Shown piece by piece: positions 25,918-61,439 of a stretch of 64,000 bases of DNA. The notes beneath the pieces were generated by a model. That model saw only the letters and a list, made by a program, of their open reading frames with translations, ran no database searches and was not told the DNA's origin. The translations under genes were made by a program, and so were the position numbers. Origin of the DNA: Niastella vici. Its GTDB lineage: Bacteria; Bacteroidota; Bacteroidia; Chitinophagales; Chitinophagaceae. Each line of letters starts with the position of its first letter. The first letter of the stretch is position 1. Where the stretch lies: the NCBI RefSeq assembly GCF_002077945.1, contig NZ_LVYD01000002.1, positions 62,001-126,000 of the forward strand, written 5' to 3'.

Positions 25918-25963
25918 CGCACCCGTTTGCGCTGCCATTGTTTTATTATTATCGTTAGTATTG
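25918..25963 (+). promoter_or_regulatory. Operator and -7 box of the GH2 gene
   Basis: CGCACCCGTTTGCG (25918-25931) is preceded by an A-rich tract and followed exactly 24 bp later by TAGTATTG (25956-25963), a one-mismatch TAnnTTTG box. The same pair with the same spacing stands before GH109 and the sigma genes of loci 2 and 3. The ATG is 4 bp after the box, so the mRNA may be leaderless. Confidence 0.65.
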
Positions 25964-25967
25964 GATC

Positions 25968-28900
25968 ATGAAACTGATATTTACCGGATTGTTATTAGCA
26001 ACTCCGCTTTATTTCTTTGCCCAAACCATACCGTCAGAACTGCAATCACCGGAAATTACTGCTGTCAACCGCCTTCCCATGAAGGCATCTTCCTTTGCCT
26101 ATGAGAACAGGCAACTGGCAGCCGGTGGTGAAAAAGAAAGCTCCGCTAATTTTCTTTCCCTGAACGGACTCTGGAAATTTAACTGGGTACAGGACCCGTC
26201 GAAAAGACCGGTTGATTTTTACCGGACTGATTTCAATGATGCGCAATGGACAAATTTTAAAGTGCCGGCCAACTGGGAAGTAAATGGATATGGATTGCCC
26301 ATTTATGTAAATCAGCCGTATGAATTTGCAGGCCGCCAAAAGACTGGTGAAGACCTGCAGCCTCCTTTTGATATTCCGGAACATAATAACCCGGTAGGAT
26401 CTTATCGTAAGCATTTCACCCTGCCTGCCGCCTGGAATGGCCGGCAGGTTTTCATACACCTTGGCGCTGTAAAGTCGGCTTTCTTTATCTGGATCAATGG
26501 GGTAAAAGTTGGTTACAGTGAAGACAGTAAGCTGGCAGCTGAGTTCGACATCACCCGGTATGTGCATGCAGGTGAAAACCTCGTAGCACTGCAGGTATAT
26601 CGCTGGAGCGATGGCAGCTACCTGGAGTGCCAGGACATGTGGCGCATCTCTGGCATTGAACGGGAAGTGTACCTGTACTCCACCTCCATACTGGACGTTT
26701 CAGATTATAAAGTGATTGCCGGCCTCTCCAATAATTATACAACCGGCGAACTGCAACTCGATGCTATTGTCAACAGCTATAAAATTGACAAAAACACTTC
26801 GCACAGCAAGCCCGATACTTTTTCTGTTGAAACGGAACTCGTCGATGCGCAGGGAAAAACAGTGGCACAATCAGCAAGCCTGGGCGTACAAACCGTACTG
26901 GGAAATTATTACCGGGAAGTTCATATTCAGCAGCAGGTACCCAATGTACATCCCTGGTCGGCCGAAATACCATACCTCTATACGTTATACATTACGTTAA
27001 AAGACAAAGATGGCAACATACTGGAAGTTGTTCCCCAGCACGTGGGTTTTCGCAACATAAAGATCGAAGACCGGAATTTACTGGTGAATGGTAAAAGAGT
27101 ATTTTTGAAAGGTGTGAACAGGCACGAGCACAATGCCACCCAGGGGCACACCCTTTCAAGAGCAGATATGGAGAAAGACATGGAGATGATGAAAAAGCTC
27201 AATGTAAATGCCGTGCGGCACTCTCACTACCCGCCCGATCCCTACTGGATGGAGCTTTGCGATAAGTATGGTTTGTATGTGATTGATGAAGCCAATATAG
27301 AATCGCACGGCAGGTATTATGATCTTGAATGGACCTTTGCCAACGACCGGCAGTGGTTAAAACCTCATCTCGACAGAATTCAGCGCATGTACGAGCGCGA
27401 TAAAAACCACCCGGCTGTTATTACCTGGTCACTGGGCAATGAAGCAGGCAATGGCGCCAATATGTATACCGCTTACGACTGGCTGAAACAAAAAGACAGC
27501 CGGCCTGTACAGTATGAACGGGCCGAACATGATTACAATACAGATATGATCGTTCCGCAATACCCCGACCCCAACTGGCTCGAAAGGTATTCGAAACGTA
27601 ATCCCGACCGGTTGCTGATCATGAGCGAATATGCGCACATCATGGGTAACAGCCTTGGTAATTTCAAAGAATACTGGGATGCCATCGAAAACAATCCTTA
27701 CCTGCAGGGCGGCTTTATTTGGGAATGGATAGATCAGTCAATTGACACGGTTAAAAACGGAAAGCGGATCATGGCGTATGGCGGCGATTTCCCGCTGAGT
27801 GGGCCGGTTGATGACAACTTCAGCGATAATAATTTCTGCGTGAAGGGCGTGGTTACCGCTTACCGTGGATTAACGCCCATGGCCATCGAAGTAAAAAAAG
27901 TATACCAGCATATCAAAACCAGCTGGAATGGCAATAACCAGCTAACGGTTCGTAACAGTTATTTTTTCAAAAGCCTGGACAATATACAGTTGAACTGGGA
28001 ACTGTTACAGGATGGACGGCCCGTTGAAAAAGGCGCCATAAACAGTCTTGCTGTTGCTGCGGGAAATGCTTCCACCATCAATCTCCCGTTAAAAACAACT
28101 TTATCAAAAGCGCACGAATATTTCCTGAACATCGGCTATACACTTAAAGAAGCCGAGCCCTTCCTGGAAAAGGGATATACGATTGCAGCCGACCAGTTCT
28201 TACTGAATGAAAAAGCAACGCCGGCAACAACTACACGCGCGAAAAGCGGCACGTTACAGGTAATAGAAAACGGCAAACAATTAACGTTGAAAGGCAACGA
28301 CGTCAGCATTGAATTTGATCATGAAAAAGGCGTATTGAACAGTTATATGCTGAGGGGACAGCGATTATTGCAGCAGGGACCGCAACCCGCTTTCTGGCGG
28401 GCGCCTACCGACAATGATATTGGCGCGGGTTATAACCACTCGCTGCGCAACTGGCGTAATGCCTACGAACAGGGCACTGAATTAAAAGCTTCCTCCCGGA
28501 AAATTGACGGCGCATACGAAGTTATTTTTACTAAAAAGATGCTGAATGGCGACGCCCTCGCTGAACAAACATTTACTGTTTATGGAGATGGCGCTATTAA
28601 AGTGGAGAACCGGTTCAAGGCGCTGGGCGGAAAACATAAAATATTATACCGCGCCGGGAACGATCTGCAGGTTAACCAGCAATTAAACCAGGTACAATTT
28701 TATGGCCGTGGCCCCGGGGAAAATTATTGGGACCGCAAAACAGCTTCTTTTGTTGGCATCTATAAACAATCGGTCGATGAGCAATATTTTCCTTATGCAC
28801 GCCCGCAGGAAAGCGGCAACAAGACCGATGTGCGCTGGGTTGCACTTACCAACCAGCAAGGCAAAGGATTGCGTTTTGAAATGGCCGACAGTCTCCTGAA

Positions 28901-29123
28901 CTTTTCGGCCCTACCCTATAGCCTGGATGATCTTGATCCTGAAAAAGACAAGAAGCAATACCATTCCGGTGAGCTAGTGAAACGAAAAGAGATCTACATG
29001 CACGTTGATTGGCAACAGAGTGGCGTGCAGGGAATGGACAGCTGGGGGGCGCAGCCGTTGATACAATACCGGATACCCTATAAAAATTTTGAATATAGCT
29101 ACTGGATAAAACCCATACGCTAA
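25968..29123 (+). CDS. GH2 beta-galactosidase, exported
   Basis: This hydrolyses terminal beta-galactosides. The 1051-residue enzyme has a signal peptide (1-18, ending FFAQ), a sugar-binding domain with [13 protein letters not shown] and [11 protein letters not shown] (about 70-110), Ig-like domains, and the catalytic barrel: [25 protein letters not shown], the acid/base Glu492 in [10 protein letters not shown] and the nucleophile Glu554 in IMSEYAH. A Bgal small-chain domain (about 770-1050) with [11 protein letters not shown] and [14 protein letters not shown] follows. This is the LacZ-like architecture typical of Bacteroidota polysaccharide loci. It shares a promoter module with GH109. Confidence 0.95.
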
Positions 29124-29131
29124 ACACAAAA

Positions 29132-60681: not shown

Positions 60682-60746
60682 AAGCGCCGTTTTTTACCAG
60701 GCTGGCTTATGAAGACCGGGAACCAGACAAAGAGGAGGGTATTATT

Positions 60747-61358
60747 TTAAAAAATATTTTTGAAGAAGGCTACATAAAGCAATAGCGAGATGAGCTGGTC
60801 TTTGTATTGTAGCAGGCATTCGCGTATAAAGTGTCTGGAGTTTACTATATATTCTCTTACTGTTGGTTTTGAAATATTCATCACCTGCGCTATTTCCTCG
60901 TACGACAGTCCCTTTTCCCTGCTTAACCGGTAAGCCTCCTGTTGCCGCGTTGGCAATTGATTGACCGCTTTTTCCAGGATTGCCCGCTCCTGTTTCCGGA
61001 TCATCATCTCCTCTGAATTAACCAGTTCTTCTTCAAATAATTCGCGAACATATTGGATGTTCTTTCTTTGCGTAGCCAACCTTGAGAACTGATTGAAGAT
61101 GGCATTCCTTGCAATAATGAACAGATAATTTTCTACATTTTCAACTTTAACCAGTGAATGTCTTTTTTCCCAGATCTTTAAAAACACCTGTTGGGTAATA
61201 TCTTCGGCCTGTTCATGTACTTTCAAATAGGCCAGTGCGGCTGAATAGATGCGATCGAAATAAGAGAGGTAAAGCTCGCGAAAAGCAGCTTCATTACCTT
61301 CCGCAAGTAAGTTTATAAGCATTTTCTCATTGTGAGCATACAGTGGCTGTATCGACAC
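60747..61358 (-). CDS. ECF RNA polymerase sigma factor, locus 3
   Basis: I propose the GTG at 61358 (product beginning (M)SIQPLYAHNEKML); the alternative is the ATG at 61322 (MLINLLAEGNEAAF). The longer frame to 61430 would run through the promoter. About 203 residues, with region 2 (FRELYLSYFDRIYSAALAYLKVHEQAEDITQQVFLKIWEKR) and region 4 (LPTRQQEAYRLSREKGLSYEEIAQVMNISKPTVREYIVNSRHFI), ending LLLYVAFFKNIF. It is the first gene of the locus 3 unit, with a CGCA-type operator upstream. Confidence 0.93.
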   Translation of the reverse strand: MSIQPLYAHNEKMLINLLAEGNEAAFRELYLSYFDRIYSAALAYLKVHEQAEDITQQVFLKIWEKRHSLVKVENVENYLFIIARNAIFNQFSRLATQRKNIQYVRELFEEELVNSEEMMIRKQERAILEKAVNQLPTRQQEAYRLSREKGLSYEEIAQVMNISKPTVREYIVNSRHFIRECLLQYKDQLISLLLYVAFFKNIF

Positions 61359-61393
61359 GGCGTTCGAAATTAGTTTTGGTTTGCAGATATATT

Positions 61394-61439
61394 CAAATAT
61401 AATTAAATGAGCTGGCAATATCGCAGGCAAACGATTGCG
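61394..61439 (-). promoter_or_regulatory. Operator and -7 box of sigma gene 3
   Basis: On the minus strand CGCAATCGTTTGCC (61426-61439), preceded by an A-tract, is followed 24 bp later by TATATTTG (61394-61401), a perfect TAnnTTTG box. The predicted transcription start is near 61389, 30 nt before the GTG. Confidence 0.7.

Follow-up and report, generated by a model that had tools for sequence, protein, structure and literature searches.

Regulation of glycan loci in Bacteroidota has mostly been described through HTCS, SusR and ECF/FecR systems, each dealing with one glycan. Proteins of the LacI family are typically released from DNA by a sugar, and PurR-, CcpA- and Cra-type operators are even, CG-centred palindromes. 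A central CG has been reported for 1173 of 1251 transcription factors with even palindromes (1303 factors in all; PMC4052901). Two LacI-family proteins, FixV of Mesorhizobium loti (PMC3538637) and MdxR of Enterococcus faecium (PMC3737153), are reported activators. In Bacteroides, comparative genomics has defined the LacI regulators KdgR, UxaR, UxuR and UxmR (PMC3878776), and the Crp-family protein Cur/BT4338, with the motif wwwTATGTTnTAnAACATAwww (PMC3878776), is a global carbohydrate activator (PMC3878776, PMC6989115). With respect to geometry, Mor of phage Mu activates the promoter Pm, which contains a partial UP element, as a dimer bound to 16 bp whose centre lies at -43.5 (PMC4390567), and the Bacteroidota box TAnnTTTG lies at -12 to -5 (PMC9723704).

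The window analysed here, a stretch of 64,000 nucleotides from the soil bacterium Niastella vici, contains four promoters that a preliminary description had grouped by a shared palindrome and its distance to a -7 box. When the DNA was re-read, all four palindrome/-7 box pairs were found at the positions described, with a spacer of exactly 24 bp between the palindrome and the box 3' of it, and with an A-tract ahead of each palindrome. On the plus strand, the GH2 promoter has its A-tract at 25911..25914 (nahK promoters, considered below, are A-rich at the same position), the palindrome CGCACCCGTTTGCG at 25918..25931 and the -7 box TAGTATTG at 25956..25963; the GH109 promoter has an A-tract at 29174..29177, CGCACCCGTTTGCG again at 29181..29194 and TAGTATTG at 29219..29226. 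On the minus strand, the sigma 2 promoter consists of an A-tract (52300..52305), the palindrome CGCAACCGTTTGCG (52284..52297) and the box TAAATTTG (52252..52259), and the sigma 3 promoter of an A-tract (61443..61449), CGCAATCGTTTGCC (61426..61439) and TATATTTG (61394..61401). The 14-bp consensus first proposed holds as to the palindrome and its central CG, which is present in all four copies, but the last letter in sigma 3 is C rather than G, and the left half-site is variant in GH2 and GH109, which have CGCAC in place of the CGCAA of the other copies. Because TAnnTTTG is taken to lie at -12 to -5 (PMC9723704), the palindrome centre would fall at about -43.5, near the -42 originally suggested. 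A fifth palindrome named at the outset (39677..39690) is real, but neither strand carries a -7 box 24 bp from it. We rejected a Crp/Cur site on its motif, as by eye the four sites read CGCA..CGTTTGCG/C, not the Cur motif given above.

The GH2 promoter is followed by a gene for a LacZ-type beta-galactosidase (25968..29123, plus strand), assigned by Pfam and by NCBIfam beta_gal_Bga2A above its cut-off, and the GH109 promoter by a GH109 gene (29267..30709, plus strand; PF21252, E 3e-46) of the alpha-N-acetylgalactosaminidase type. The two minus-strand promoters each precede consecutive genes for a sigma factor with regions r2 and r4, FecR, SusC and SusD, which form two ECF-sigma/FecR/SusCD loci. 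The sigma 2 locus encodes an ECF sigma factor (51672..52238; Pfam Sigma70_r2/r4_2) and, by Pfam, a FecR-type anti-sigma factor (50554..51564), a SusC-like TonB-dependent transporter (46976..50386) and a SusD-like protein (45411..46931); downstream of this SusCD pair, on the same strand, is a gene for a GH123-family protein (39851..42868; PF19543, E 0) of the beta-N-acetylgalactosaminidase type. The sigma 3 locus encodes an ECF sigma factor (60747..61358) with a likely GTG start at 61358 (an alternative longer ORF to 61430 would overlap its promoter), and, again by Pfam, a FecR-type anti-sigma factor (59488..60681), a SusC-like transporter (55757..59308) and a SusD-like protein (54195..55739).

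Both the palindrome and its spacing stand out from controls. Allowing two mismatches, CGCAANCGNTTGCG occurs 11 times in the window, compared to 3.0 (sd 1.7) in shuffled sequence, and none of 100 shuffles reached 11. The genome scan suggested earlier as a check for random spacing was run on 1.195 Mb, with at most one mismatch in the palindrome (26 oriented matches) and spacings of 0-70 to the -7 box; spacing 24 was an outlier, with five pairs compared to a mean of 0.15 per spacing. Similarly, the N24 pattern with up to three mismatches was found at 15 places in the whole genome, compared to 3 for a reversed-pattern control. The relaxed pattern CGTTTGC-N(10-40)-TANNNTTG was not enriched overall in the whole genome (77 places, compared to 70 for the reversed control) and gave no clear spacing peak (7 of the 77 at 24, 6 at 28). 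Thus, the signal depends upon the fuller palindrome.

The suggestion that these are LacI-type operators is supported by gene neighbourhoods, since a LacI-family gene adjoins the same layout in 28 of 80 named loci of relatives, which were selected solely by their LacI gene. In these 28 loci lacI is followed by the gene for an N-acetylhexosamine kinase (nahK), and 26 of the nahK promoters have the palindrome and TAnnTTTG separated by 24 bp, in most cases preceded by an A-tract; the two exceptions are one promoter with a spacing of 25 and one with a weak box. Among 32 nahK promoters remaining after an 85% identity filter, high information is confined to the A-tract, palindrome and -7 box, and CAA.CG is invariant in all 32, consistent with an even palindrome with a central CG. 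As the preliminary description stated, the window itself has no LacI gene: none of the 13 found in the genome falls in C2:62001-126000. The regulator of the four sites is most likely the LacI-family protein encoded on a different contig, at G000:C41:253627-254637 (the C41 protein), which has an N-terminal LacI helix-turn-helix (PF00356, 44.3 bits compared to a cut-off of 27) and a periplasmic-binding-protein-like sugar domain (PF00532, PF13407 and PF13377 above cut-off). It is single-copy, with the next paralogue 36% identical, a palindrome is found ahead of its own gene, and it matches no named LacI-type regulator (CytR, RbsR, PurR, CcpA and others), all 19 NCBIfam matches being below their cut-offs. 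Several of the twelve further LacI-family genes have similar recognition helices, and such paralogues probably account for two groups of palindromes that we set aside, namely copies with CGAAAACG half-sites (C54, C58, C79) and copies at a distance of 33 bp from GH29 and GH3 genes downstream.

We scored the genome with a profile (R1) and a weight matrix, both trained on 20 nahK promoters from other genera. Over the 10-Mb genome, with 150 of 5039 first-look candidates scored and 46 places at E<=10, the top three places in profile R1 went to the organism's own nahK promoter, sigma 3 and sigma 2 (E about 2e-6; 2.2e-6 for either sigma promoter). The fourth-best match, C24:16502, has no same-strand gene within about 550 bp, and the sixth, C73:33741, lies ahead of an ECF sigma locus and has no box at 24; the fifth palindrome in the window scored E 0.019 on the plus strand, and scores were weak both for C44:267168, which would be a third sigma locus (E 0.28), and for the promoter of lacI itself (E 0.38). 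Over 1.195 Mb, the six highest weight-matrix scores belonged, in order, to sigma 3 (40.1), nahK, sigma 2 (39.5), GH27, GH2 (24.0) and GH109 (23.2), a range of 23.2-40.1 bits compared to 17.8 for the best reversed control, below which the fifth palindrome falls (12.7 and 8.2). The organism's own nahK (L059:2461-3519) is homologous to solved NahK (4wh1, E 5.3e-53; 4ocj, E 6e-53), and its permease (L059:3525-4829) scores 421.8 bits with NCBIfam NagP, below the cut-off of 625, and passes TIGR01272 gluP (glucose/galactose; 337.6 compared to 202.55). These matches suggest a regulon larger than the four promoters, with nahK-permease and GH27 added and perhaps lacI and the third ECF sigma locus as well.

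Support for the single regulon with fixed spacing originally proposed comes from scans at three levels: part of this genome, its genus, and the 80 loci of named relatives. In ten genomes of the genus, with gaps of 14-34 permitted, 17 of 30 matches were at gap 24 and every other gap had at most two; because the reversed-pattern control gave more matches in total (56, without a spacing breakdown), we take as evidence the concentration at gap 24 and not the total. The GH27 and nahK promoters retain the elements in most of the genus, and the spacers of the sigma 2, sigma 3, nahK and GH27 promoters are mutually unrelated although the elements are kept. In the 80 LacI-selected loci, 41 sites were at spacing 24, compared to a mean of 2.6 and to 10 at the second-highest spacing, such that spacing 24 topped all positions from -90 to +90. 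These 41 sites precede nahK (26), lacI (4), GH109 (1), GH123 (1), genes not labelled by our query set (8) and no ORF (1); Pfam identified three of the eight unlabelled genes as two GH123 and one Sortilin/BNR protein. We do not claim the peak at spacing 44 (10 matches) as a second helical register; five of these matches are lacI promoters (L210, L216, L225, L226, L231), four come from two pairs of near-identical loci, and one is in L175. Profile R1 had matches at E<=0.001 in four of 198 genomes drawn from the class, including its own and two outside the family. Thus, the layout seems to be largely confined to the family and to the LacI-found loci of Mucilaginibacter and Pedobacter, genera of Sphingobacteriaceae.

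From the layout and its conservation, the genes behind it and the neighbourhood of the regulator gene, we infer binding, activation and an effector, and put at roughly two in three the probability that the four sites are LacI operators at a fixed RNA polymerase-contacting position, from which the C41 protein activates a joint regulon in response to N-acetylhexosamine. The promoters would be of the ordinary Bacteroidota (sigma-A) type, comprising, in order, an A-tract, a 14-bp palindrome with its central CG near -43, the 24-bp spacer and TAnnTTTG; the C41 protein would probably activate transcription in a class II-like manner, with help from the C-terminal domain of the polymerase alpha subunit at the A-tract further upstream. 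The presence of nahK, a sugar permease, GH109, GH123, GH27, GH2 and ECF-sigma genes among the targets points to an N-acetylhexosamine signal, probably GalNAc, and the trigger would be the available sugar or its phosphorylated form. Such a regulon would join uptake and phosphorylation (nahK and a NagP/GluP-type permease) to the exoglycosidases and the ECF-sigma/FecR/SusCD loci, and since the latter are included, a cytoplasmic sugar signal would gate glycan-uptake loci in addition to the control exerted by the anti-sigma system of each. For a LacI-family activator to be inducible, its ligand would have to strengthen its hold on DNA or its contact with RNA polymerase.

A LacI-type protein thus envisaged probably switches scattered glycan genes on together, and of the activated regulon first proposed, membership and fixed spacing are supported, whereas activation, from about -43, is favoured as the best reading of the rigid spacing across unrelated genes. 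The same regulator might instead use the same operators to repress, blocking RNA polymerase beside the -33 region until sugar releases it, which we consider unlikely but the most serious of the alternatives. Repression is the usual mode of action in the LacI family (PMC3538637), the palindrome directly adjoins the -33 region, and before lacI it is found at spacings of 23, 24 and 38/44 across relatives, closer to autorepression than to fixed activation. Blocking, however, needs no lock at 24 bp before genes as unrelated as nahK, GH109, GH123, GH27 and ECF sigma; moreover, no comparable palindrome peak overlaps or follows the -7 box (80 loci, -90 to +90), and the A-tract is conserved on the upstream side only. 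In a comparison of the -33 region, TTG was present 18-21 bp ahead of the box in 2 of 20 nahK promoters, compared to 12 of 64 general promoters.

Assignment of the sites to the C41 protein would fail if another LacI paralogue bound them, for instance one of the pair C2:150858 / C2:151572, which lie on the same contig some 25 kb past the end of the window. Several of the 13 LacI-family genes have a ..STVSRAL.. helix, and the variant half-site is common to GH2 and GH109; yet in the nahK-promoter profile both sigma promoters reach 31.2 bits, level with the organism's own nahK promoter (31.3 bits), 28 of the 80 loci have nahK next to the orthologue of the C41 protein, and the palindromes in the regions upstream of the C2 pair are weaker or different. 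We regard a different paralogue as improbable.

The GH2 and GH109 promoters are the weaker pair, imperfect and lineage-specific, and are probably duplicates, with nearly identical A-tract, palindrome and -7 box. Neither is among the 46 places listed by profile R1 at E<=10 from the 150 of 5039 candidates scored. The site is absent from all four genus GH109 orthologues at 61-62% identity (second GH109-like genes there are 37-39% identical), and the layout is absent from all five genus GH2 homologues read, several of which were matched from within the gene such that the upstream region was partly covered; the homologue in L312 has a near-palindrome without a box. Although this apparent duplication and the missing GH109 sites would suit descent of the spacing from one copied ancestral nahK promoter, with the four window sites lacking present function, the unrelated spacers around kept elements in sigma 2, sigma 3, nahK and GH27 and the retention of elements by GH27 and nahK promoters in most of the genus make this very improbable.

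More broadly, we see an even chance that a LacI class II-type activator conserved in Chitinophagaceae and Sphingobacteriaceae is a master switch for GalNAc and other N-acetylhexosamines, with a strict promoter grammar that has captured ECF sigma genes. If so, glycan-uptake loci would obey two signals, with LacI reporting on intracellular amino sugar and FecR, together with the sigma factor, on glycan in the periplasm, and a LacI-family protein would occupy a fixed RNA polymerase-contacting position on a Bacteroidota -7 promoter. Such a readable grammar would bring ECF-sigma genes and exoglycosidases together in a single regulon with an amino-sugar kinase and a sugar sensor of the LacI family, providing a named candidate protein, exact predicted operators and a predicted effector class; it can also be scanned for, as a single profile recovers candidate targets throughout the family.

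The accessible portions of the open-access literature searched contain no description of a LacI-nahK regulon in Bacteroidota or of a LacI operator whose distance to TAnnTTTG is fixed. KdgR, UxaR, UxuR and UxmR likewise are LacI-family regulators of Bacteroidota sugar catabolism but serve uronate pathways, and the available text mentions neither a nahK/GalNAc regulon nor fixed spacing (PMC3878776). FixV and MdxR share with the C41 protein the family and, if our reading is correct, activation of target genes; they differ in phylum and promoter type, and the available parts of these reports give no fixed operator-promoter spacing. Cur/BT4338 resembles the proposed system in having a palindromic site upstream of the -7 box and in activating many Bacteroidota sugar genes, but it belongs to another family, recognises another motif and responds to a shortage of carbon, not to a single class of sugar. 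Mor at Pm has nearly the same geometry, although it is an unrelated protein at a sigma-70 promoter. Finally, the PurR-, CcpA- and Cra-type regulators of the LacI/GalR family have in common with this system the LacI helix-turn-helix and sugar-binding domain, the CG-centred palindrome and sugar-catabolism targets, whereas here the operator is locked 24 bp ahead of a Bacteroidota -7 box behind a conserved A-tract, is probably activating, and counts ECF-sigma genes among its predicted targets.

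At the four window promoters that the preliminary description had joined (those of GH2, GH109 and, on the minus strand, sigma 2 and sigma 3, the ECF sigma genes of FecR/SusCD loci), direct reading of the DNA bore out both the constant spacing and the preceding A-tract: 4/4 sites have an A-tract, a 14-bp palindrome-like element, a spacer of exactly 24 bp and a -7 box. Element and box are CGCACCCGTTTGCG and TAGTATTG for both GH2 and GH109, CGCAACCGTTTGCG and TAAATTTG for sigma 2, and CGCAATCGTTTGCC and TATATTTG for sigma 3; CGCAANCGNTTGCG with at most two mismatches occurs 11 times in the window, compared to 3.0 in shuffles. 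The GH2 and GH109 promoters share a variant left half-site and an identical imperfect box, the site is absent from all four GH109 orthologues examined in the genus, and the pair can be read as copies of a single promoter piece that was duplicated recently in the N. vici lineage. At window 25956-25970 the GH2 box ends 4 bp upstream of the ATG, and the GH2 mRNA may be leaderless, because a TAnnTTTG at -12 to -5 would put the start at or near the ATG. A fifth palindrome (window 39677-39690), with its A-tract on the minus strand and a DUF3472/ricin-lectin gene downstream, has no -7 box at 24 bp. Separately, window 29128-29151 and 39716-39745 hold a similar stretch, AAAAAGGAACCCCATGGCA(C/G)CGGG, which by eye forms a terminator-like hairpin at the latter and only half of one at the former.

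The same architecture stands at C2:302369, on the contig whose positions 62001-126000 make up the window, before a kinase gene (nahK) homologous to solved N-acetylhexosamine 1-kinases (4wh1, E 5e-53) and followed by a sugar permease gene. Palindrome, spacing and box of this promoter are kept in 9/10 genus members (the tenth, G008, is 61% complete), while the spacer diverges.

Genome scans agreed with the proposal that the palindrome and TAnnTTTG keep a non-random distance, with 24 bp the outlier in part of the N. vici genome, in the genus and in 80 loci chosen by their LacI protein. One scan covered 1.195 Mb of the 10.06-Mb, 134-contig N. vici genome, namely contigs C2 and C42 and the initial 280 kb of C41. 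There, 26 oriented palindrome hits had no more than one mismatch, and we took the distance from each of them to all -7 boxes (TA required, one other mismatch allowed). Spacing 24 had 5 hits, compared to a mean of 0.15 over 71 spacings; these 5 are the nahK promoter and the four sites of the preliminary description, so that this test alone is partly circular, unlike the whole-genome, genus and LacI-chosen tests below. Allowing two palindrome mismatches (130 oriented hits) gave 7 hits at 24 against a mean of 0.65, one of which (C42:294741) is probably chance, since it lies inside an ORF. Over the whole genome, the N24 pattern with up to three mismatches occurred in 15 places, compared to 3 in the reversed control. 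In ten genomes of the genus, CGTTTGCG-N(14-34)-TANNTTTG matched 30 places, 17 of them at gap 24 and at most 2 at any other gap; only this concentration counts as evidence, because the reversed control matched 56 places over all gaps together and gives no count for each gap. With at most two mismatches, the N24 pattern was found in 47 places in 16 of 59 genomes (N. vici and relatives; 11 in the reversed control) and in 32 among the ten genus members (5 in the control). A looser pattern was not enriched (77 compared to 70 in the reversed control) and had no clear spacing peak (7 at 24, 6 at 28). Counts over related genomes are not independent, and we therefore applied identity filters to the profile and column table described below.

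Our candidate regulator is a LacI-family protein encoded at C41:253627-254637. In G016, a genome of another genus, its orthologue (53% identical) is the gene just before nahK, and the architecture stands in the interval that separates them; we therefore searched the relatives' contigs using three aligned LacI sequences alone, and took the best 80 of 160 relatives. The closest named relatives by LacI gene (94-97% identical) are Longitalea and Niastella, which we take to belong to the family Chitinophagaceae. nahK adjoins lacI in 28/80 loci, and in 26 of these 28 nahK promoters the 12-bp core of the palindrome has no more than one mismatch and a perfect TAnnTTTG follows at 24 bp, the exceptions being L183 (spacing 25) and L185 (weak box). 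Since these loci were selected by protein and not by motif, their histogram is an independent test: over spacings 0-80, with related promoters counted more than once, 24 has 41 hits against a mean of 2.6, followed by 10 at 44, and the mean outside spacing 24 is 1.6 over positions -90 to +90. Exact 12-mers numbered 34, compared to 0-2 across ten mononucleotide shuffles. The 41 sites precede nahK (26), lacI (4), GH109 (1), GH123 (1) and eight genes unlabelled by the query set; the remaining site precedes no ORF. Seven of the eight (L166, L168, L170, L171, L172, L174 and L175, near 5940-5950) are alike in size and position, diverge from lacI and have TAGTTTTA or TAGCTTTA 24 bp beyond the palindrome; both of those scanned by Pfam (L170, L174) are GH123 (PF13320), and the eighth is a Sortilin/BNR protein. 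In five loci (L210, L216, L225, L226 and L231, near 5906-5913) lacI is preceded by a palindrome from which -7-like boxes are 38 and 44 bp away; the larger distance, 44, exceeds 24 by about two helical turns.

We then scored the genome with models trained on other genera. A sequence-only profile was built from 20 nahK promoters (<90% mutually identical), all from loci with a LacI that shares no more than 59% identity with that of N. vici. Its top three places were nahK (E 2.0e-6), sigma 3 and sigma 2 (both 2.2e-6), followed by C24:16500 (C24:16502-16547; 3.8e-5), which has no gene on the matching strand within about 550 bp and could be a decoy, a remnant or an unannotated RNA. Fifth was the intact promoter at C41:35530 (C41:35498-35543; 1.3e-3) of a GH27-type gene that is truncated or decayed in N. 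vici (its match covers residues 4-231 only). This promoter was found in 7/10 genus members; the GH27 ORF was read in L132 and L145 (408-409 aa; 409 aa in L132, PF16499) and its start in L142. Sixth was C73:33741 (C73:33741-33787; 2.6e-3), upstream of an ECF sigma/SusC-like locus and without a -7 box at 24 bp, and then the fifth window palindrome (0.019). Weaker scores went to the architecture at C44:267168, which is followed by genes for an ECF sigma factor and FecR (0.28), and to that before lacI itself (C41:253569, TAACTTAC at spacing 24; 0.38). The 46 places that the profile reported do not include GH2 and GH109, perhaps because only 150 of 5039 first-look candidates went on to scoring, or because these two match less well. 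From those 20 promoters we also took the A-tract, palindrome and box columns as a simple weight matrix, which over the 1.195 Mb ranked sigma 3 (40.1), nahK (39.8), sigma 2 (39.5), GH27 (31.9), GH2 (24.0), GH109 (23.2) and lacI's own promoter (15.2), with a best reversed control of 17.8. Thus sigma 2, sigma 3 and nahK clearly form one group of sites, and GH2 and GH109 exceed the control but are weaker members. ECF sigma genes also follow the site in genus members L140, L141, L149 and L151, with imperfect -7 boxes in 4/4. Beside the decayed GH27 gene, a weaker copy (C41:34459, minus strand; 13.8, below the best control) lies just before a purple-acid-phosphatase-like gene.

Of 147 family genomes, 92 had a profile match at E<=0.05, often a weak one; at E<=0.001, only 4 of 198 genomes from the class had one, N. 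vici included. Among 29 relatives' loci from the family search, the box lies at 24 bp in 17, a spacing built into the profile, so that only the gene identities are informative: they include nahK (7/17), GH35 (2), GH109, GH92, a GH31-like gene, a DUF5107 protein and a TonB-dependent transporter.

Similar sites could be bound by one of the twelve other LacI-type proteins of N. vici; the C41 LacI is single-copy, with 36% identity to the next paralogue. Palindromes of a second class, with half-sites CGAAAACG, occur at C54:136643, C58:712642, C79:44612 and C79:44791; one copy lies upstream of a LacI gene at C58:712426, and the class probably serves another paralogue as operator. At C124:549670 and C45:45901, in front of a GH29 fucosidase and a GH3 enzyme, related palindromes stand 33 bp ahead of TATATTTG and perhaps belong to another paralogue as well.

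For the C41 LacI as regulator, promoter anatomy suggests a mode of action. A column table was made of 32 nahK promoters from N. vici, its genus and the named relatives after an 85% identity filter, with both exceptions kept in. Information in it is high in three blocks only: A's at positions -7 to -4 counted from the palindrome (24-29/32 per column), the palindrome itself (CAA.CG..TTG, 32/32 for all bases named) and the box TA-G-TTTG, after which comes mostly a purine. The spacer is low in information except for a pyrimidine next to the palindrome, and no equally conserved A-tract lies downstream of the palindrome. As to a -33 element, a TTG 18-21 bp upstream of the box occurs in 12/64 general promoters and 2/20 nahK promoters. 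According to PMC9723704, TAnnTTTG spans -12 to -5 in Flavobacterium psychrophilum; if starts are placed likewise, the palindrome would span -50 to -37 with its midpoint near -43.5, the A-tract lying at about -57 to -54. A LacI-family dimer on the palindrome would most likely touch RNA polymerase, with the A-tract as a putative site for the alpha C-terminal domain, and would activate transcription. Repression, by contrast, works from any position on a promoter and requires no exact spacing, which speaks against it; activation is favored because unrelated genes (nahK, GH109, GH123, GH27 and ECF sigma) have one exact spacing and differing spacers.

Gene content (GH109, GH123, GH27, LacZ-type GH2, in relatives GH35, and the amino-sugar kinase) points to N-acetylgalactosamine-containing glycans. 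The exo-alpha-N-acetylgalactosaminidases of the genomes in PMC5583593 are assigned there to GH27. The permease is compatible with this reading, its match being non-specific: its best NCBIfam score is NagP (421.8 bits, below the cut-off of 625), and it exceeds the gluP glucose/galactose subfamily cut-off (337.6 compared to 202.55). If the window's two ECF sigma genes are under the same operator, their glycan-uptake loci would need an intracellular amino sugar as well as their own anti-sigma signal.

In the passages returned by full-text literature searches, neither a Bacteroidota LacI-nahK regulon that follows this grammar nor its extension to ECF sigma genes was described. The protein family, operator type and promoter type are all already known. 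The same geometry is found in an unrelated system, that of the phage Mu activator Mor, which works through a 16-bp element at -43.5; the promoter concerned also has a partial UP element (PMC4390567).
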